Positions 53,389-64,000 of a stretch of DNA of 64,000 nucleotides are shown here, piece by piece. The position numbers and the translations under genes were made by a program. The notes beneath the pieces are model-generated. The model made no database searches. It was not told the DNA's origin and worked only from the letters and a program-made list of their open reading frames with translations. Numbering within the stretch: the stretch's first letter is position 1; each line of letters starts with the position of its first letter. The DNA comes from Clostridia bacterium (GTDB lineage Bacteria; Bacillota; Clostridia; Oscillospirales; SIG627). The stretch spans positions 124,001 to 188,000 of the forward strand of contig JAFWZW010000023.1 in NCBI GenBank assembly GCA_017517325.1. Direction: 5' to 3'.

Positions 53389-54792
53389 TTACAGAGTGGA
53401 AAGATCGTAATCGGTCAGGTACTTTTTGGTGTTCAGCACCATCTTCTTAAAGAGGGCTCTGGCATCTTCCACGCCGCAGGTCACCAGGGGATCACCTGCA
53501 AAAGCGGCAAAGATCTTGGTAAGGTCACGCTCTGCTACACCCTCGCTTACCAGTTCCTGCTCGGCACAGATCCTGCCGATCAGGGAGTGGATCTCCTTGG
53601 GAATGGGGCCGGCCATAACGGGTGTTACACCGTTGGAGGAGAAGACCGCGTTGGTCTCTACTACGGCGCCTAAGGGAAGATTGGGGATCTGACCCACGTT
53701 GGGAATGTTTACGTTGGTTACCAAAGGATCTCCCAGACCCAGAATGGCGCGCATCTGTGCAACGCCCTCCTCACCGGATTGCTTCAGGGTAATGGGGAGT
53801 GCCCCGGAGCGAAGGTCGCGGCTCTTTTGCAAACGCTCCTCTAAAGAGCCTCTGCGCCACTGAATGGAGGTGAGGCTGAAGCCCCAATTTCTTGCGTGCT
53901 CGGGGGATTTCAGGTACCAGTCACCGTCAACGAATTCTGCCAGATGGCGGTCACCTGCGGCGGCAATGGAGCCGTAGCGCAGGAACAGGTCAAATTTAAC
54001 CTTATGAGAGCAACGGAAGCAGTTGTTCATCCAGTTGGAATCCAGCCATTTGGTACAGCCGGTCTCTCTGTGTTCCTCTGCCAATTCACGGTAAAGGGGG
54101 AATAGATCTTGATTCTGGTAGGTAGCGCGGGTCAGCCAGGTGAAGTGGTTTACACCCACGGGGTTTACCTTAATAAGGCTTCTCTTTTCAATCTCAATGC
54201 CCAGTTTTTCCTTGGCACAGTTCATCAGAAGCTTTTGGGTGCCGAATACCTCGTGGCAGCAGCCGAAGGCACGGATCTGGGGGAAGGTGCGGTAAAGGGT
54301 GCGAACGCAAAGGGTCATGGGGTTGGTGTAGTTGATGACCCAAGCGGTAGGGCAATAATCGCGGATGTACCCTGCGATCTCCTCAAACATAGGAATACAG
54401 CGCATTGCGCGGACAACGCCGCCGGGGCCGCTGGAATCGCCCACAGATTGATAAATGCCGTATTCTTCCGGTGCGTGTATGTCGGATTCCATTTCGTCAA
54501 AGGTACCGGGGAGAATGGAGATCACAACGAAATCAGCCCCTGTCAGCGCTTCCTTGGGGGTCTTTCCCACGAAGTAATTCCATTGAGAAATCGTGCCCTC
54601 TGCGTCGTTGTATTTGTTACCGATAATGCGGTTATCCTCTGCCGCATCCTGGTCAATGTCATAAAGGTATACGTCACCGGACATATCGGGGCAGGTGGCA
54701 AGGTCACTCATCAGGTTCCAGGCCCAACCGCGGGATCCGCCGCCAATATAGGCGATTTTGACGTTTTGTGCTTTTCCGTCAATAATTCTCAT
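53389..54792 (-). CDS. GH4 family NAD-dependent glycosidase
   Basis: 467 aa from ATG 54792, seven bases after AGGAGG; the ATG two codons earlier is too close to the ribosome site. Rossmann motif IAYIGGGSRGWAWN, INYTNPM, the Mn-ligand Cys-His in CCHEVFG, and VNPVGVNHF. GH4 enzymes use NAD+ and Mn2+ for oxidation-elimination at alpha-glucosides, galactosides or galacturonides. A galacturonide role would suit the GH28-like gene at 18.5 kb, but that is inference. Cytoplasmic, unphosphorylated substrate likely (no PTS nearby). Confidence 0.88.
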   Translation of the reverse strand: MRIIDGKAQNVKIAYIGGGSRGWAWNLMSDLATCPDMSGDVYLYDIDQDAAEDNRIIGNKYNDAEGTISQWNYFVGKTPKEALTGADFVVISILPGTFDEMESDIHAPEEYGIYQSVGDSSGPGGVVRAMRCIPMFEEIAGYIRDYCPTAWVINYTNPMTLCVRTLYRTFPQIRAFGCCHEVFGTQKLLMNCAKEKLGIEIEKRSLIKVNPVGVNHFTWLTRATYQNQDLFPLYRELAEEHRETGCTKWLDSNWMNNCFRCSHKVKFDLFLRYGSIAAAGDRHLAEFVDGDWYLKSPEHARNWGFSLTSIQWRRGSLEERLQKSRDLRSGALPITLKQSGEEGVAQMRAILGLGDPLVTNVNIPNVGQIPNLPLGAVVETNAVFSSNGVTPVMAGPIPKEIHSLIGRICAEQELVSEGVAERDLTKIFAAFAGDPLVTCGVEDARALFKKMVLNTKKYLTDYDLSTL

Positions 54793-54927
54793 TGTCATTC
54801 CTCCTGATTTTTTCTTTATTATATATCAAATAAATCAAAGTTTCCTTGATAATTTTGGGAAAACAAGACTGTTTTCTTTGTTTTTTTGATAAAAAAGAGT
54901 TAAGTTCATAATGAAAAAGCAAAATGC

Positions 54928-54957
54928 TTGATTTCTTTGATGGGTTGGGTGTATAAT
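54928..54957 (+). promoter_or_regulatory. Promoter of metF-metH unit
   Basis: TTGATT at 54928-54933 and TATAAT at 54952-54957, spacer 18. The leader is about 30 bases, so no S-box or cobalamin riboswitch fits. Confidence 0.65.
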
Positions 54958-54989
54958 GCATAATAAAGAAGAAAAAGGGGTTTTGTCTT

Positions 54990-55868
54990 ATGAAGATCAT
55001 CAATTTGCTTCAAAGTAAGCTTTTGTCCATTTCCTTTGAGGTGTTCCCACCTAAAACCGATACTGCCTATGAAAGCGTGCGCGTAGCTACGGAGGAGATA
55101 GCCAAGCTTCGCCCCGCCTTTATGAGCGTTACCTACGGGGCAGGTGGCGGCACCAGCCGTTATACCCTCGATATCGCAAAGCAGATCAAAGAGAAGTATG
55201 ACGTGCCCTCCCTTGCGCATCTCACCTGCGTTTCCTCCACCAGAGAAACGGTACAAAGTCGCATTGCTGATATGAAGGCGGCGGGCATTCAGAACGTAAT
55301 GGCCCTTCGTGGAGATATTTCCGCAGATTTAATGGATGCTGACCGAAGTGCTTGGGCCTACCACCACGCCATCGAGCTGGTGCGGGAACTGAAGGAATCC
55401 CATGCGGATTTTTGCATCGGCGGTGCCTGCTACCCCGAGGTGCACCCTGAAAGCGAAAACCAAAAGGAGGATATTCTGCACCTGAAGGAAAAGGTGGATG
55501 CGGGCTGTGAGTTTCTGACCACCCAGATGTTTTTTGATAACAACCTTCTTTATAATTTCCTTTATAAGATCCGTGAGGCTGGGATCACCGTTCCCATCAT
55601 TCCCGGCATTATGCCCATTACAAACGCCAATCAGGTGGATCGCGCCATCAAGCTTTCGGGCTCCTTTATGCCCCGGCGCTTCAAGAGCCTTGTGGATAAG
55701 TTCGGCTCCGATCCCGACGCTATGAAGCAGGCGGGCATTGCTTATGCTACCGATCAGATCATCGATCTGTACGCAAACGGCATCACAAACGTTCACGTTT
55801 ACTCTATGAATAAGCCCGATGTCGCGGCCAGTATTCAGAATAATCTTTGTGATATATTAGGGAAATGA
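54990..55868 (+). CDS. metF: 5,10-methylenetetrahydrofolate reductase
   Basis: 292 aa TIM-barrel flavoenzyme making 5-methyl-THF for methionine synthesis. SFEVFPPKTD near the N terminus (catalytic Glu), SVTYGAGGG, HLTCV, NVMALRGD, and TTQMFFDN with PGIMPI. Short form without the regulatory domain of eukaryotes. First gene of a three-gene methionine unit, four bases before the next start. Confidence 0.96.
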   Translation: MKIINLLQSKLLSISFEVFPPKTDTAYESVRVATEEIAKLRPAFMSVTYGAGGGTSRYTLDIAKQIKEKYDVPSLAHLTCVSSTRETVQSRIADMKAAGIQNVMALRGDISADLMDADRSAWAYHHAIELVRELKESHADFCIGGACYPEVHPESENQKEDILHLKEKVDAGCEFLTTQMFFDNNLLYNFLYKIREAGITVPIIPGIMPITNANQVDRAIKLSGSFMPRRFKSLVDKFGSDPDAMKQAGIAYATDQIIDLYANGITNVHVYSMNKPDVAASIQNNLCDILGK

Positions 55869-55872
55869 TCCC

Positions 55873-56436
55873 GTGATATTTCGTATCAGCGTAAGTGCCC
55901 CTCCCATCTGCGAGGGCGAGATCCTGCGGTATGCGGGCTCCTTTCAAAATGACCCCCAAACGGTGGCGCTCCTGCGGGAATGTCTGGAGGAAGCGGAAGG
56001 AAAATTTACCTATCGGGTCTGCTACCGCCTCCTTGAAGAGGATAACGCCCTTTTGGCTTCAGAGCCTTTGAAGGCGTATTTTTCCCCTTGCAAAAAAAGA
56101 GTGGTCTTCGCCGCAACGGTTGGGGTGGAGATCGACCGCCTCATTACAAAATACGGCAGGATCTCTCCTGCCAGAGCCCTGATGCTTCAAGCCATCGGCA
56201 CGGAGCGGGTAGAAGCTCTTTGTGATGCCTTTTGCCAAAGCTTGGAGCGTGAATATCAAATGAAAGCCGTGAGGCGTATCAGCCCCGGCTACGGGAAGCT
56301 TCCCTTAAGTCTTCAAAAGGAGATCTTTGACCTGCTTGACTGTCAAAGGCAGATCGGGCTGACCCTTGGAAGCAGTCTTTTAATGTGCCCCACGAAATCG
56401 GTGACGGCCTTCGTTGGGCTGAAGGAAAGAACGTAG
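55873..56436 (+). CDS. Stand-alone MetH activation-domain protein (GTG start)
   Basis: 187 aa. The C-terminal part carries RRISPGYGKLPLSLQKEIFDL and a CPTKSVTAFVGL segment, matching the SAM-binding reactivation domain normally at the C terminus of cobalamin-dependent methionine synthase. Here it is a separate gene between metF and a MetH that lacks the domain. It should serve in reductive methylation of inactive cob(II)alamin. Start GTG 55873, four bases after the metF stop. Confidence 0.88.
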   Translation: MIFRISVSAPPICEGEILRYAGSFQNDPQTVALLRECLEEAEGKFTYRVCYRLLEEDNALLASEPLKAYFSPCKKRVVFAATVGVEIDRLITKYGRISPARALMLQAIGTERVEALCDAFCQSLEREYQMKAVRRISPGYGKLPLSLQKEIFDLLDCQRQIGLTLGSSLLMCPTKSVTAFVGLKERT

Positions 56437-56445
56437 AGGTAACGA

Positions 56446-58839
56446 ATGAATTTCAGAGAATTTTTGAAAGAGAATATCGTCTGTCTTGACGGCGGTATGG
56501 GCACCCTTCTGCAAGGCAAGGGCCTTTTGCCCGGTGAAGATCCCGAGCGTTGGAATCTTTCCCATCCGGAAGTGATCCGCGAGATCCACCGTGGGTATTT
56601 CAATGCGGGCAGTAACGTTGTGTGCACCAATACTTTCGGTGCCAATATTTTAAAGTTTTCCGAAAAAGAATTGGAAGCGATCCTTACGGCCGCCGTTGAA
56701 AACGCCAAGGCGGCAAGAGAAGCCTCCTCTTCTCAAAAGGAAAGATTTATCGCCTTGGATATCGGCCCCACGGGAAAGCTCTTAAAGCCCTTGGGGGATC
56801 TTGATTTTGAAGATGCCGTGGAGGTTTTTGCCAAAACAGTTCGCATCGGGGCCCGCCTTGGGGTAGATCTGGTGATGGTGGAAACCATGAACGATAGCTA
56901 CGAAACCAAAGCCGCCCTTTTGGCTGTAAAAGAAAATTCGGATCTGCCCGTTCTGGTCTCCAACGCCTACGGGGAAGACGGAAAATTGATGACCGGTGCA
57001 ACTCCCGCCGCTATGGTGGCAATGCTGGAGGGAATGGGGGCGGATGCCATTGGTGCCAATTGCTCTTTGGGACCCGTACAGCTTCGCTCCGTGGTGGAAG
57101 TCTTGCTTGAAAAAGCCTCCGTTCCCGTTCTTTGCAAGCCTAATGCGGGGCTTCCCAAATGTGTAAACGGCGAAACGGTCTTTGACGTGACCGTGGAAGA
57201 ATTTTCGGAGGAAGTGGCGTCCTTTGTGAAAAAAGGCGTTCGTCTGGTGGGCGGATGCTGTGGCACTACTCCCGAGTATATTTCGAATCTTTGCTCAAAG
57301 GCCGCTTCTCTTGCGCCTGTTCCTCTTAAGGAAAAGAATTTCACCGTTATTTCCTCTTACACCCACGCCCTTGAATTTGGGGAAAAGCCCGTTCTCATCG
57401 GCGAGCGCATCAATCCCACGGGTAAAAAACGCTTTAAGCAGGCCCTTCTGGAGGGGGATATGGATCATATCCTCACCGAAGGAGTCAATCAGCAGGAAAA
57501 AGGCGTTCACGTTTTGGATGTGAACGTGGGTCTCCCCGAGATCGACGAAGGGGCGATGCTGAAGGAAGCAGTCTGCCGTCTGCAGGAGGTGACCGATCTT
57601 CCCCTGCAGATCGATACCGCAAGCGTCTCTGCTATGGAGGGAGCGTTGCGCCGTTATAACGGTAAGGCGATGATCAATTCCGTCAATGGTAAGCGTGAGA
57701 GCATGGAAGCCGTTTTTCCCCTTGTGAAAAAATACGGCGGCCTTGTGGTTGCCCTGACTTTGGATGAAAACGGTATCCCCGAAACGGCCGAGGGCAGAGT
57801 GAAGATTGCTCAAAGGATCCTGAAAACCGCAGAGGGCTACGGGATCGCAGGGAAGGATATTATCTTCGATACCTTGGCTATGACCGTCAGTGCCGATAAT
57901 CGCGCCGCTCTTGCGACCCTTTCCTCTCTTAAAACCATCAAGGAGAGCCTTGGTTGCCATACCTCTCTTGGCGTTTCCAACGTATCCTTCGGTCTTCCGT
58001 GCCGTGATGCGGTGAACAGCACCTTCTTTACCATGGCGCTGGAAAACGGCCTTTCTGCCGCCATTATGAATCCCTATTCTCCCGATATGATGAAAACTTA
58101 TTACGCATACTGCGCTCTTAAGGGCTTGGATGAAAACTGCGCAGCTTACGTTGCTCATGCAGAGCTGTTTGCTACGGTATCTGCTGCCCCTCTGCTGCAG
58201 AAAAAGCCTTCGGAGGAAGCCGCTTCCGAGCTGCAACGCGCCATTATAAAGGGGTTTCGTGATCAGGCGGGCGCTATCACGAAAAAGCTTCTTGCTACCG
58301 TTCCCCCTCTTGAGATCGTAAACGGCGAGATCATTCCCGCTCTGAATCGGGTGGGGGAGGGCTTTGAACGGAAAACGGTCTATCTGCCCCAGCTGCTTAT
58401 GAGTGCCGAGGCGGCAAAAAGTGCCTTTGAGGAGATCAAGACCTTCCTTTCCGACGGCGAAAAGAAGGAGGGAAAGGGCACCTTCGTCCTTGCTACTGTT
58501 CACGGTGATATTCACGATATCGGTAAAAACATCGTAAAGCTTCTTTTGGAAAACTATGGCTTTGACGTAGTGGATTTAGGGAAGGACGTTCCCCCCGAAA
58601 AAGTGCTGGAAGCCGTCTCGGAGCTCCGCGCACCGTTAGCGGGGCTCAGCGCCTTGATGACCACTACCGTTCCCGCTATGGAGGAGACCGTGAGATTGCT
58701 GAAGGAAAAAGCCCCTTGGTGCAAGATCGTGGTGGGTGGCGCCGTTCTCACGGCGGAATACGCCGCACTGGTTGGTGCAGACCATTACGCCAAGGATGCA
58801 ATGGAAACCGTTCGCTTCGCCCAGAGGATCATCGGGTAA
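56446..58839 (+). CDS. metH: Cobalamin-dependent methionine synthase, core without activation domain
   Basis: 797 aa. Domains in order: homocysteine-binding barrel (GGMGTLLQGKG; zinc Cys in GANCS and GGCCGT), pterin-binding barrel starting at GERINPTGKKRF, B12 cap, and B12-binding Rossmann domain with D688-x-H690-x-x-G693 (DIHDIG), the lower-ligand motif. E. coli MetH (1227 aa) adds the activation domain, which here is the preceding gene. Transfers methyl from methyl-THF to homocysteine. Last gene of the unit. Confidence 0.95.
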   Translation: MNFREFLKENIVCLDGGMGTLLQGKGLLPGEDPERWNLSHPEVIREIHRGYFNAGSNVVCTNTFGANILKFSEKELEAILTAAVENAKAAREASSSQKERFIALDIGPTGKLLKPLGDLDFEDAVEVFAKTVRIGARLGVDLVMVETMNDSYETKAALLAVKENSDLPVLVSNAYGEDGKLMTGATPAAMVAMLEGMGADAIGANCSLGPVQLRSVVEVLLEKASVPVLCKPNAGLPKCVNGETVFDVTVEEFSEEVASFVKKGVRLVGGCCGTTPEYISNLCSKAASLAPVPLKEKNFTVISSYTHALEFGEKPVLIGERINPTGKKRFKQALLEGDMDHILTEGVNQQEKGVHVLDVNVGLPEIDEGAMLKEAVCRLQEVTDLPLQIDTASVSAMEGALRRYNGKAMINSVNGKRESMEAVFPLVKKYGGLVVALTLDENGIPETAEGRVKIAQRILKTAEGYGIAGKDIIFDTLAMTVSADNRAALATLSSLKTIKESLGCHTSLGVSNVSFGLPCRDAVNSTFFTMALENGLSAAIMNPYSPDMMKTYYAYCALKGLDENCAAYVAHAELFATVSAAPLLQKKPSEEAASELQRAIIKGFRDQAGAITKKLLATVPPLEIVNGEIIPALNRVGEGFERKTVYLPQLLMSAEAAKSAFEEIKTFLSDGEKKEGKGTFVLATVHGDIHDIGKNIVKLLLENYGFDVVDLGKDVPPEKVLEAVSELRAPLAGLSALMTTTVPAMEETVRLLKEKAPWCKIVVGGAVLTAEYAALVGADHYAKDAMETVRFAQRIIG

Positions 58840-58843
58840 AATG

Positions 58844-58877
58844 AAAGCAGGAACTGCTTGTGCAGTTCCTGCTTTTA
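58844..58877. terminator. Bidirectional terminator between metH and the acyltransferase array
   Basis: AAAGCAGGAACTGC and GCAGTTCCTGCTTT around TTGT. Confidence 0.88.
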
Positions 58878-58878
58878 G

Positions 58879-60075
58879 TTATTCCTCAATGAGAATGACA
58901 CCGCTGGTATCGTAAACGAATTCTCCTTTTAAATAAACCTGCTTCAGGCCGCGCTGAAGGCTGGTGTTTTCGGGGAGCTCTTCGTAGCTTTTGACACCGA
59001 GGGGGTAAACGTAGCTCATGGGTGATTTGCCTGCGCTCTTTCTGGGGTAGCGGGTGTAGCGCAGAGCAAAGGAGGAAATTTTGGATTTCGTTCCCAAAAC
59101 CTCCTGCAATACGGGGGAGAGAAGCCAAGAGCAGCAGTAAAATACCTTGGGCTTCCATTCGGGGTAACAGCGCTTGGTCAGCTCCAGCGCTTCCTTTAAG
59201 GATCGAGAAACAGCTTCGGGTGAAAAATCGGTGTTTCGGGGAATGTGAACGCTTAGACCGTGATCACCGGGCTGATAGACCAGCTCCCATTCCTTCTTGA
59301 AAAAGCGCTCCCGCTCCCGCTGTATCAAAATGCCGCGGGAGGGGTTGCCCACGTATTCCGTCTCCGTCTCTTCAAAGCGGGTGATAAAGGAGCCTTCCTC
59401 CTCTTCGGCACCGCTGCTGCCCAAGAGAAGACCGCTTTTGTGAACGGGGAGCTCGTTTCCGAAAACGGGGAGGATCTCGCCGCTCATTTTGTTTCTCAAA
59501 ACGAAGGCGTTGTAGGAGGGGGAGGTGTGGATCTCAAAATTCAGACCGTGGTGATAGAAGATCTTGCACTTAATGTAAAGCACGCACCAATTTGCATAAA
59601 GATCCGTAAAGCCGGGTACGCCCAAAATGTGGTTCTCTACCACCTCAAGGCTGATTTTGAAGCCTTCCAGATTGACAATGGCCTGCTCAGGGGTAAAGCC
59701 GCGCTCCACGTATTCCTTATAAGCATCCTCAACGGAAGGAAGAAGTGCGTAAAGGGGCAACATATTACCTGCCACGGTACCGTCCGTTTTGGGGTATTTC
59801 ATTTTGCGGCAGCTTTTGCAATCCAGATCGCGAATGCAAAGGCTTACGGCATCAATGAAGGCTTTGCGGTCTCCGTTTTCTTCGGAGATCACCTTCCAGC
59901 CTTGCTTTACAAGATCAAAATATTTGCCGAATAGGTCGAATTTTTCCTGCAGACGGCAGATCAGATCCATGGAGCAAAGCTCGTTTTCTCTGCCTGCGGG
60001 TAGGGGATAGTAGGCGTTCAGGGGTTCGGGGTAGTTTTTGACCCCGAGGCGTTCTGCTAAAGTTTGAAACGACAT
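58879..60075 (-). CDS. Array member 1: NAT_N/GNAT_C (DUF5596)-type putative acyltransferase
   Basis: 398 aa from ATG 60075 (GGAGAAAAAT upstream). Soluble. N-terminal helical half, with CSMDLICRLQEKF near residue 45, and C-terminal GNAT-like half with VHIPRNTDFS, CCSWLLSPVLQEVL and the tail PENTSLQRGLKQVYLKG. It is the most divergent of the five: the middle VGRPAL motif reads GVPGFT. Last gene of the operon, 10 bases after member 2. The family is assigned from memory of the SWLL-P-L pattern; the substrate is unknown. Confidence 0.72.
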   Translation of the reverse strand: MSFQTLAERLGVKNYPEPLNAYYPLPAGRENELCSMDLICRLQEKFDLFGKYFDLVKQGWKVISEENGDRKAFIDAVSLCIRDLDCKSCRKMKYPKTDGTVAGNMLPLYALLPSVEDAYKEYVERGFTPEQAIVNLEGFKISLEVVENHILGVPGFTDLYANWCVLYIKCKIFYHHGLNFEIHTSPSYNAFVLRNKMSGEILPVFGNELPVHKSGLLLGSSGAEEEEGSFITRFEETETEYVGNPSRGILIQRERERFFKKEWELVYQPGDHGLSVHIPRNTDFSPEAVSRSLKEALELTKRCYPEWKPKVFYCCSWLLSPVLQEVLGTKSKISSFALRYTRYPRKSAGKSPMSYVYPLGVKSYEELPENTSLQRGLKQVYLKGEFVYDTSGVILIEE

Positions 60076-60085
60076 ATTTTTCTCC

Positions 60086-61279
60086 TTACAGTTCAATGAC
60101 ACCGGCGTAGCTCAAAACCACTTTTCCTTCAATGTAGTGCTTTTTTAAAGCACGCATCAGGCTGGTATCTTCAGGCAGATCCTCATAGGGACCGTTGAAG
60201 GTCGCGGGAAATACGAAGCTGAATACGCTTTTACCGGAAGCATCCTTCTGGGGGTAACGGATCCAGGTGTTGCCGAAGGCCAAGATCTTGCTGTCGGGCT
60301 TCAGCATAGGCTCCAGATCCTTGGAAAGAAGCCAGGAATAACAATGGAACATTTTGGGATCATATTCGCTGAAGCCTTGCTTTATGATCTTCTTTGCTCC
60401 TTCTCTGGCAGCGCGGAAGGCCTCAACGCTGATATCGCTGCCTCTGGGGATGTGAACGGCGATGAAGTTATCGCCGGGCTTCATGAGCATGACCCATTCA
60501 GACTTGGGGAAAACGGTCTTTTCGTTCACGTAACGACAGCCTTTTGCGGGGTAACCTACATATGCATCTTCCGTCTCTTCAAAGGTAGCTTCAAAAGCGC
60601 CTTCCTCATCGGTTTCGCCCACGGAGCCGAATACCATTCCGTTTGCGGAGATCTTCTGAGGAATGGCAACGGGCACGACCTCGCCGGTCACCTTGTTCTT
60701 TAAAATGTTGGCGTCACCGTGGCGGTGCACTTCAAAATTAAAGCCGCCATGGCGGAACAGTCTTGCCTTGGTGTAAAGGCATTGCCAGGAAAAGAAGGTT
60801 CTGGTCAGGGCTGGGCGACCGGGTACGCCCTTTTCGGCATTTGCCAGACAGTTGTAATAATTCTTCATATAGAGCTTTACCGTCTCTGCATCAAAACCGC
60901 GTTGCAGATACTTTTCGTATGCCCCATCAATGGAGGGAAGGTGAATGTAAAGGGCGAAAAAGTCCTTTACGGGAGTGCCGTCAAATTCGGGAATCTTGAT
61001 CTTGGTGACCATTTCGTATTCGTTGTCCATCATATAAAGGCAGGCGGCGTCAACGTAAGCCTTCATTCTCTCATTTTTCTCCAGCTCCAACCAAGCATCT
61101 CTTACGGCCTGATGGTATTCTCCGAAGAAATCAAATCGTTCCTGAAGGTGGTCAATGAGCTCTGCGGAGCAAAGATGAGCCTTACGCTCTCGGGGAACGG
61201 GGTAATATTTGTGCATCCCTTCGGGAACCAGGTCGTATTTCAATACGCCGATCTCTTTTGCTATCTCGTTTAAAATCAT
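60086..61279 (-). CDS. Array member 2: NAT_N/GNAT_C-type putative acyltransferase
   Basis: 397 aa. N terminus LNEIAKEIGVLKYD, conserved CSAELIDHLQERFDFF, VPGRPALTRTFFSWQCLYTKA, FEETEDAYVGYP, VHIPRGSDIS, CYSWLLSKDLEPML and the tail PEDTSLMRALKKHYIEGK. It lies between members 1 and 3 with 10- and 15-base gaps. GAGGAGAAAAACT before ATG 61279. Confidence 0.75.
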   Translation of the reverse strand: MILNEIAKEIGVLKYDLVPEGMHKYYPVPRERKAHLCSAELIDHLQERFDFFGEYHQAVRDAWLELEKNERMKAYVDAACLYMMDNEYEMVTKIKIPEFDGTPVKDFFALYIHLPSIDGAYEKYLQRGFDAETVKLYMKNYYNCLANAEKGVPGRPALTRTFFSWQCLYTKARLFRHGGFNFEVHRHGDANILKNKVTGEVVPVAIPQKISANGMVFGSVGETDEEGAFEATFEETEDAYVGYPAKGCRYVNEKTVFPKSEWVMLMKPGDNFIAVHIPRGSDISVEAFRAAREGAKKIIKQGFSEYDPKMFHCYSWLLSKDLEPMLKPDSKILAFGNTWIRYPQKDASGKSVFSFVFPATFNGPYEDLPEDTSLMRALKKHYIEGKVVLSYAGVIEL

Positions 61280-61294
61280 AGTTTTTCTCCTCTG

Positions 61295-62488
61295 TTAAAA
61301 TTCAATAATGCCACCGTAATTGTGAATGTGATCGCCTTCTAAATACATTTTTTTCAAAGCGCGCATCAGGCTGGTATCCTCAGGCAGATCTTCCAAAGGT
61401 CCCTTGAAATCCTGGGGGAACACGAAAACGAACACGCTCTGCCCGTTGGATTTTACGGGATAACGAACGTAGCGCTCACCAAAGGAAAGAATGCGGGAGC
61501 CGGGCTTCATAATTTTTTTCAGATCCGGGCTGAGAAGCCAGGAATTGCAGGTGAAAAAGTGAGGCTTGAAATCCGGGTAACGCTGAGAAACGATCTCTTT
61601 TGCCTCTTCCAGAGAATGGGTAATATTCTCTTCGGAAAGGTCGGTCTTTTTGGGAATATGAATGGCAACGATATTGTCTTTTGGCTTAAAGACCATTTCC
61701 CATTCTGATTTTGCAAAGGACTCTTTTTGAGTGGAGAAAAGAAGGTCTTTTACCGGGAAGCCAATGTAAGCATCCTCTGTCTCTTCAAAGGTGGTCTCCA
61801 CAGCCCCTTCTTCATCTTCGAAATCCACCGTGCCCAAAAGATGCCCGCTGCGATGGAGCTTCTGCCCTTCTTTTGAAAGAAGCCGAATTTCTCTCGTTTC
61901 CTTATGCTTCAAAGCGTAAACGGCTTTGTTGGTGGCGAGCTGATAGTTCAGGCCGCGGTGATAAAAGATCAGCGCCTTGGTGTAAAGGCAAAGCCAGCGA
62001 AAATAAATATCCACCAGAGCAGGTCTCCCCACCACGTTTTTGTGGGTGTGGGCAACGTCGTCGTAGAAGCAATCCAGATGGGACAGGGTCTCTTCGTGGC
62101 TGAAGCCGCGACTTCTGTATTTGTCGTAGGCCGCTTCCAAGGAGGGAATATGAATGAAAAGCTGTAAAAGATCACCTTCCGGGGTTCCGTTGGGAGCAGG
62201 TACGGGGATCTTGGTGCATTTTCCGTAAGAGGAGTCCTTCATAAAAAGGCTTGCCGCGTCAACGTAGGCCTTTCTTAAGGTGTCCCTTTCCAAAGCCTGC
62301 CAATATTCCTTGACGATGGAGTAGTATTCCTTGAATACGTTGAAACGCTCCTGCAATCTGTCGATCATTTCAAGACTGCAAAGCTCCCCCTTTCTTTCTT
62401 GGGGAATGGGGTAATAGGGAAGCATTTCTTCTGGGATCGCATCGTACTTTTCAATACCGATCTTTTTTGCAATTTCATTTAAGTTCAT
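61295..62488 (-). CDS. Array member 3: NAT_N/GNAT_C-type putative acyltransferase
   Basis: 397 aa from ATG 62488 (AAAAGGAG upstream; the longer frame overlaps member 4). Same motifs: CSLEMIDRLQERFNVF, VGRPALVDIYFRWLCLYTKA, FEETEDAYIGFP, IHIPKKTDLS, CNSWLLSPDLKKIM, PEDTSLMRALKKMYLEG. By eye it is closest to member 4, sharing almost the whole first 130 residues. Confidence 0.76.
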   Translation of the reverse strand: MNLNEIAKKIGIEKYDAIPEEMLPYYPIPQERKGELCSLEMIDRLQERFNVFKEYYSIVKEYWQALERDTLRKAYVDAASLFMKDSSYGKCTKIPVPAPNGTPEGDLLQLFIHIPSLEAAYDKYRSRGFSHEETLSHLDCFYDDVAHTHKNVVGRPALVDIYFRWLCLYTKALIFYHRGLNYQLATNKAVYALKHKETREIRLLSKEGQKLHRSGHLLGTVDFEDEEGAVETTFEETEDAYIGFPVKDLLFSTQKESFAKSEWEMVFKPKDNIVAIHIPKKTDLSEENITHSLEEAKEIVSQRYPDFKPHFFTCNSWLLSPDLKKIMKPGSRILSFGERYVRYPVKSNGQSVFVFVFPQDFKGPLEDLPEDTSLMRALKKMYLEGDHIHNYGGIIEF

Positions 62489-62501
62489 AGCTTTGCTCCT
62501 T

Positions 62502-63692
62502 TTAAAATTCAATGATACCGCCGTAATTGAGGATGCTTTCGCCCTCACCGTACAGCTTTTTCACAGCCCGCTGGAGGCTGGTGTTTTCAGGTAATTCATC
62601 AAGGTCTTTTTCAAAATCTACGGGAAATACGCAGGGAAGAAGGCCCTTGCCGTTGCATAACACCGGGTATCGAAGAAAGCACTCACCAAAAGATAGGATC
62701 CGCGAGCCGGGCTTCAGTACCTTCTCTAAATCAGGACTTATGATCCAGGAGGTACAGGTGAAAAAACGTGCTTTTCGTTCCGGAAAGTGCCTTGCGACCA
62801 TTTCCTTTGCACCTTTGAAAGCAAGAGCAACCTCTTCTGGGGAAAGATCGGCACCGGTGGGAATGTGAACGCCGATGCAGTCATCCCGCATATCCAAAAC
62901 AAGCTCCCAATCCTCTTTGGAAAATCGCTCCTTGTTTGTAGAAAAAAGATGGCTTTTTACCGCAAATCCAAGGTAGGCATCTTCTGTTTCTTCAAAGGTG
63001 GCATCTACCGCACCCTCTTCCTCCCGGTATCCCGCAGAGCCCAAGATGCGGCCGCTTTTGTGAAGTCTTTGGGGTGTGGCAAGAATGCGCAGCTCTCCGT
63101 TATTCTTATTCTTTAAAACGTAGATCTGCTTGTTTCGGCGCATAGCAAATTTCAGCCCGTGGCAGGAAAAGATCCTTGCTTTTGTGTAATTGCAGAGCCA
63201 GCGGAAATAATCGTATACCAGCGCAGGTCTTCCCACAAGATTCTTGTGGGTGTCGGATACGTTTTGGTAGTAGGAGTCTAAAAAACTCAAGGTTTCTTCG
63301 TGGGAGAAGCCCCGTGCTCTGTAATGTTCGTAAGCATCCTCCACAGAGGGAACGTGGATGAAAAGCTGCAACAGATCCCCGGCGGGGGTACCGTCAGGCG
63401 CAGGCACCGGGATGGCGGTGCATTGGTTGAAGGCGCTGTCTCGCATAAAAAGGGAGGCGGCATCAACGTAAGCCTTTCTTAAGGGGTCCTGTTCCAGAGC
63501 CTGCCAGTATTCTCTGACGATGGGGTAGTATTCCTTGAATATATTGAAACGCGCCTGCAGTCTGTCGATCATTTCGAGGCTACAAAGCTCCCTTTTTCTC
63601 TCTTGCGGAATGGGGTAGTAGGAGAGCATTTCCGGGGGCATTTTTTGGCACCTTTCTGCGCCGATCTCTTTGGCAAGATCCATCAGATTCAT
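62502..63692 (-). CDS. Array member 4: NAT_N/GNAT_C-type putative acyltransferase
   Basis: 396 aa; GGAGGGTGCTTT before ATG 63692. Motifs CSLEMIDRLQARFNIF, VGRPALVYDYFRWLCNYTKA, FEETEDAYLGFA, VHIPTGADLS, CTSWIISPDLEKVL, PENTSLQRAVKKLYGEG. First gene of the four-gene operon, 60 bases after member 5 with a terminator between. The SWLL motif reads SWII here. Confidence 0.76.
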   Translation of the reverse strand: MNLMDLAKEIGAERCQKMPPEMLSYYPIPQERKRELCSLEMIDRLQARFNIFKEYYPIVREYWQALEQDPLRKAYVDAASLFMRDSAFNQCTAIPVPAPDGTPAGDLLQLFIHVPSVEDAYEHYRARGFSHEETLSFLDSYYQNVSDTHKNLVGRPALVYDYFRWLCNYTKARIFSCHGLKFAMRRNKQIYVLKNKNNGELRILATPQRLHKSGRILGSAGYREEEGAVDATFEETEDAYLGFAVKSHLFSTNKERFSKEDWELVLDMRDDCIGVHIPTGADLSPEEVALAFKGAKEMVARHFPERKARFFTCTSWIISPDLEKVLKPGSRILSFGECFLRYPVLCNGKGLLPCVFPVDFEKDLDELPENTSLQRAVKKLYGEGESILNYGGIIEF

Positions 63693-63715
63693 AAAGCACC
63701 CTCCTGATCGAATGT

Positions 63716-63745
63716 GAAAAATGCCGCCGTATCAGGCGGCATTTT
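63716..63745 (-). terminator. Terminator or attenuator between members 5 and 4
   Basis: Minus strand AAAATGCCGCC and GGCGGCATTTT around TGATAC, then T-rich. It either ends the member 5 transcript or limits read-through into the array. Confidence 0.8.
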
Positions 63746-63752
63746 GTTGTCT

Positions 63753-64000
63753 TTACAGAGAGATGACCCCGCCGTAATCCAGAACGTAGCCGCCTGCAAT
63801 GTACTTTGCTTTCAAGGCACGCATCAGACTGGTATCCTCGGGCAGCTCCTCCAAGGGGCCTTTAAAGCTCTGAGGAAATACGAAGTTGAAAACGCTTCTG
63901 CCGGTACCCTTGCGGGGGAACCTGGCAAATCTGCGGGCAAAGCCGAGGATCTTGGAATCGGGCTTGAGCATCTCGTCCAAATCGGGGGAAAGGAGCCAGG
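63753..64000 (-). CDS. Array member 5 (C-terminal part, cut by window edge)
   Basis: 82 visible residues, open to the window end. The sequence begins within WLLSPDLDEML, then KPDSKILGFARRFARFP and the tail PEDTSLMRALKAKYIAGG ending YGGVISL, matching the last fifth of members 1-4. The start lies outside. The array may continue upstream. Confidence 0.75.
   Translation of the reverse strand, partial: WLLSPDLDEMLKPDSKILGFARRFARFPRKGTGRSVFNFVFPQSFKGPLEELPEDTSLMRALKAKYIAGGYVLDYGGVISL

Follow-up and report, generated by a model that had tools for sequence, protein, structure and literature searches.

Why would a bacterium carry five diverged copies of one acyltransferase-like gene side by side? This question is raised by the end of a 64,000 nt stretch of DNA (the window; positions 124,001 to 188,000 of contig JAFWZW010000023.1, assembly GCA_017517325.1) from a Clostridia bacterium probably of animal-gut origin. 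There, a known enzyme family, present in a long-form variant, has undergone an unusual and non-conserved expansion to an array of five genes with a GNAT_C domain (PF18164). We lean slightly towards reading the products as five acyl-CoA-dependent N-acyltransferases whose acceptors, probably amino sugars or amines, would have diverged.

Five intact genes of one family

The window together with the flanking locus L004 holds five intact open frames of 396-398 residues each, head to tail on the minus strand (Table 1). None has an internal stop and no foreign gene lies between them. Copy 5 runs past the window edge to the position equal to window 64943 and is complete in L004 (5754-6944). With starts taken from the sequence, the gaps from copy 1 to copy 5 measure 10, 15, 13 and 60 bases. 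An earlier note on this DNA had described five such genes, four of them in a tight operon with 10-15-base gaps and nothing foreign in between, and is borne out in all these points.

All copies belong to the GNAT_C family. E-values range from 1.9e-26 to 2.4e-32 for copies 1-4, which are complete in the window. Against a cut-off of 22.8 bits these four score 93.1-112.2 bits, the part of copy 5 in the window 60.8 and the five whole genes 92.9-113.7. Searching the own assembly with PF18164 gives six matches, namely the five copies and one gene on contig C9 (L005:7905-9116). Hence the array has five members, also beyond the 64 kb. Since the assembly is estimated to be 80.8% complete, further GNAT_C genes could be missing.

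Pairwise identity among the copies is 40-62%, the upper value being that of copies 3 and 4. These two differ by 0.49 at third and by 0.19 at second codon positions, as expected for maintained coding genes.

Fold and conserved residues

By the same-fold test, the model of copy 3 has the overall fold of the Orf11*/Dbv8-type N-acyltransferases, in agreement with the acyltransferase proposed before. This type comprises the glucosamine N-acyltransferases Orf11*/Tcp24/Tei11 (teicoplanin) and Dbv8 (A40926; PDB 4mfk, 4q36, 6iix, 4mfj, 4mfz). The solved members of the fold that we found are all these two antibiotic-tailoring enzymes. Besides the whole fold, the array proteins have in common with them an aligned His, an SW(L/M)LDP-like motif and an ELP...L-x-(R/K)A region. 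The His (His277 in copy 3 numbering) is identical in 32/32 alignment rows and aligns with the His of HVPEW/HIPEV, which we take to be catalytic in the Orf11*/Dbv8 type. Together with Trp317 it is retained in all five copies.

The N-terminal half of the family assignment in the earlier note did not hold at the same level. PF18082 (NAT_N) stays below its curated cut-off of 27.8 bits, with 17.9-21.5 bits where reported and copies 2 and 5 unreported. None of the NCBIfam models for named enzymes scores above cut-off in copies 1-4 or the part of copy 5. Of the motifs listed there, FEETE sits in an insert of the subfamily, outside the part common with the solved enzymes. The insert is beta-rich, comprises 70-80 residues and carries HRSG-LGS-G-DEEGSF-FEETE. 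Moreover, the long form has an invariant Lys379 where Orf11*/Dbv8 have Ile or Val. Short GNAT_C proteins (~260-340 amino acids), presumably named 'acyltransferase domain-containing protein', occur in many genomes of the order. They, too, contain the GNAT_C domain, including its HI(P/Q) His, but lack nearly all of the insert and the N-terminal part in 6/6 cases compared.

Origin of the copies and distribution

In a maximum-likelihood tree of 32 rows, with 13/29 inner branches well supported, copies 3 and 4 are sisters (support 100/100). Copy 5 pairs with a gene of the congener G005 (99/97) and copy 1 weakly with another gene of that genome (G005_C51; 89/62), while the C9 copy pairs with a gene of a goat-colon metagenome-assembled genome (100/99). 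The clade of copies 2-5 has two members without a settled place at its base, copy 2 and a third gene of G005. As read from this tree, most of the array consists of older paralogues that stand together, to which a single tandem duplication, seen in copies 3 and 4, has been added.

GNAT_C matches are absent from three of the seven genomes of the genus; of the other four, the array genome has six and the remaining three have one, two and four. The genes of the six congeners (0-4 each) are dispersed, and the metH-like gene beside the array has other neighbours there. In G005 the four copies are spread over as many contigs; since two are situated at the end of their contig, some may still be linked in that genome. 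The contig with the relative of copy 5 stops just past the gene (L076:1-183) at what looks by eye like the end of an insertion element. A strain-specific duplication, for which the earlier note had allowed, is half of the picture: none of the six congeners shows an array, yet the copies are mostly old paralogues, copy 5 firmly and copy 1 weakly grouping with dispersed genes of one congener.

Across the order, 122 of 395 sampled genomes have a GNAT_C gene. That such genes are usually single is true for 87 of the 122, which have exactly one, and fails for the 35 with two or more. Six GNAT_C genes are also found in G123 and G258. Adjacent pairs occur in G265 and G155, and G014 and G250 have such pairs of short genes; two short genes in tandem are seen at L170:5795-7564. 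Among the places listed, no other of the 395 genomes has three GNAT_C genes in a row. For class-level genomes at most four candidates were scored per genome and their GNAT_C sites are incomplete. Copy 3 alone as query of the genome contigs found no relative; a close alignment as query found 7 loci.

Proposed function and alternatives

If the copies work as their fold suggests, a bound acyl-CoA would donate its acyl group to an amine lodged between the N-terminal and the C-terminal half, and His277, the conserved His of the HIP motif, would probably act as base. The most likely acceptor would be an amino sugar or another small amine. At 40-62% identity the copies may have diverged in acceptor or acyl choice, much as the earlier note supposed for their substrates, so that a single locus would supply the cell with a few related modifications. 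The proteins are probably cytosolic.

Several observations weigh against this proposal. The copies are only 18-20% identical to the solved Orf11*/Dbv8 enzymes. As these enzymes lack both the insert and the invariant Lys379, the acceptor may be quite different. Around the array no gene indicates a substrate. In relatives, the neighbours of the family are mostly non-sugar genes (120 families matched by 89 adjacent genes, few of them recurring). Finally, conservation within the genus is lacking, with no array seen in the six other genomes (63-94% complete).

That the run is a plain gene amplification, with all copies catalysing the same reaction for dosage or as a tolerated run and no substrate set behind it, appears rather unlikely to us. 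The sister relation of copies 3 and 4 fits it, and the lack of an array in the congeners means that the run was possibly not kept for long. Dosage alone, however, predicts near-identical copies, whereas copies 1, 2, 5 and C9 are old and scattered over the tree, where G005 genes group with copy 5 and, weakly, with copy 1. Tight spacing on one strand would also suit a hetero-oligomer with some copies as structural subunits, in line with the complex that the earlier note had considered. This is very improbable, as the retention of His277 and Trp317 leaves no copy that looks catalytically dead and in many relatives the gene stands without an adjoining second copy. Hardly more probable is a role in defence, by which the copies would inactivate amine-bearing antibiotics of neighbours, one drug class per copy. 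Other GNATs are known to N-acylate aminoglycosides, and a MATE-family gene lies two genes upstream of the array. Yet a terminator-like site separates the two, and by eye no resistance gene or mobile element was recognised in the frames around the array (no resistance library was run).

The group in Clostridia combines an insert of its own with a recurrent neighbour family, and the array genome adds five adjacent natural variants, a ready set for finding the substrates of the family. Literature searches by the names DUF5596, PF18164 and PF18082 found nothing, a weak absence as subscription journals are thinly covered.

Creatininase-family genes beside the family in relatives

The recurrent neighbour is the creatininase family (PF02633). 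In 37 genomes, hand-picked among those with family matches, 15 of 93 creatininase matches are no more than 1.5 kb away from a GNAT_C gene, whichever the strand. In genomes of 2.4 Mb, ~0.6 would be expected if placement were random, an expectation that treats related genomes as if independent. The 15 come from 10 genomes of 7 genera and stand beside 12/98 GNAT_C sites (8 long, 4 short); 86/98 sites have no creatininase within this distance. As controls, read by eye in the same genomes, M20 peptidases are near GNAT_C once among the places listed (227 matches in all) and PIG-L deacetylases, to which Tei2 presumably belongs, in 1/70 cases.

The 89 adjacent genes scanned include 8 creatininases, 4 xylose-isomerase-like TIM barrels and 3 transglutaminase-core proteins. 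Gfo/Idh/MocA, GH20, deaminases, AAA and others follow with 2 each. Among 103 genes at least three positions away, creatininase is absent from the 25 listed of 140 families; this comparison flatters the result, as two creatininases of the L093 run were excluded from the far set and one more could be hidden. Both sets exclude L004, L005, loci with a family match weaker than 1e-60, neighbours below 120 amino acids, stretches not a multiple of three and genes two places away. By hand, 7/96 near and 198/301 far genes were removed. The genome-wide count is independent of these exclusions.

In teicoplanin and A40926 synthesis the deacetylase Tei2/Dbv21 frees the glucosamine, which Tei11/Dbv8 then acylates, according to PMC8987122. 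Some relatives likewise have an amidohydrolase-family gene beside the acyltransferase gene, the hydrolase being of the creatininase family, unlike in the Tei2/Dbv21 pair. The recurrence therefore suggests a deacylate-reacylate pair of Tei2/Tei11-like logic with another hydrolase family. At L093:8763-12420 four tandem creatininase-family genes lie directly upstream of a single long-form acyltransferase gene. This locus is the mirror image of the array, with the hydrolase half expanded.

From this it is tempting to regard the long-form GNAT_C proteins of gut Clostridia as one half of an amide-exchange module of which the array genome expanded the acylating half only. We consider this a quite unlikely extension of our proposal. 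The creatininase-family amidohydrolase would deacylate an amino sugar or amine and the acyltransferase would attach another acyl group, so that the five-member set might mark amino compounds, scavenged or the cell's own, in different ways. If true, gut bacteria would be able to remodel N-acyl sugars or amines by a route absent from our literature searches, again a weak absence given their coverage. The array genome has no creatininase match. Of its 3 M20 matches one place is listed, which lies off the array contig, as do both PIG-L places.

As a further observation, three tandem frames of one family, each 650 codons long, lie at L087:10191-16418, close to a gene for a long-form acyltransferase.

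Expression signals and flanking genes

Positions of the copies and of two terminator-like repeats are collected in Table 1. The repeat between copies 5 and 4 counts 11 pairs on the plus and 5 on the minus strand, and a third repeat follows the DUF4838 gene. A scan of 12 kb on both strands found 38 such sites versus 16.3 in shuffles. Upstream of copy 5 we noted by eye TTGCAG, 17 bases and TAAAAT with a TG one base ahead, a candidate promoter below the scan threshold. Purine-rich, ribosome-binding-like stretches precede the starts of the copies (by eye). The repeats and the promoter-like sequence suggest that copy 5 probably starts its own transcript, and that transcription of copies 4 to 1 may require read-through.

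Table 1. Array genes and terminator-like repeats in window numbering
Feature	Position	Strand	Evidence
Copy 1, long-form GNAT_C acyltransferase-like, last of run	58879-60075	-	PF18164 4.4e-29
Copy 2, long-form GNAT_C acyltransferase-like	60086-61279	-	PF18164 1.9e-26
Copy 3, long-form GNAT_C acyltransferase-like, used for the structure model	61295-62488	-	
Copy 4, long-form GNAT_C acyltransferase-like, tandem sister of copy 3	62502-63692	-	PF18164 8.8e-29
Copy 5, 3' part in window	63753-64000	-	PF18164 on part 1.8e-16, whole gene 1.4e-28
Terminator-like inverted repeat between copies 5 and 4	63718-63745 (L004:5719-5746 and 5742-5726)	both	consensus match only
Terminator-like inverted repeat after copy 1, shared with convergent metH-like gene	58842-58877 (L004:843-878)		consensus match only

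Unlike Orf11*/Dbv8, the array is not surrounded by an antibiotic gene cluster, as far as the adjacent frames were read. By eye, neither a frame of nonribosomal peptide synthetase size nor a glycopeptide-type gene was recognised, the search being limited to window positions 53389-64000 and to L004 from 5500 on. One flank carries convergent genes read by eye as MTHFR and metH. On the other lie a DUF4838 gene with a GH67 N-terminal-like part, the MATE-family gene beyond the terminator-like site, a sodium:solute symporter and a DeoR-type regulator. The DUF4838/GH67-like gene (L004:7076-8812, window numbering 65075-66811) is near the symporter and the regulator. Its protein has a 62% identical copy in the congener G005, at a different location.
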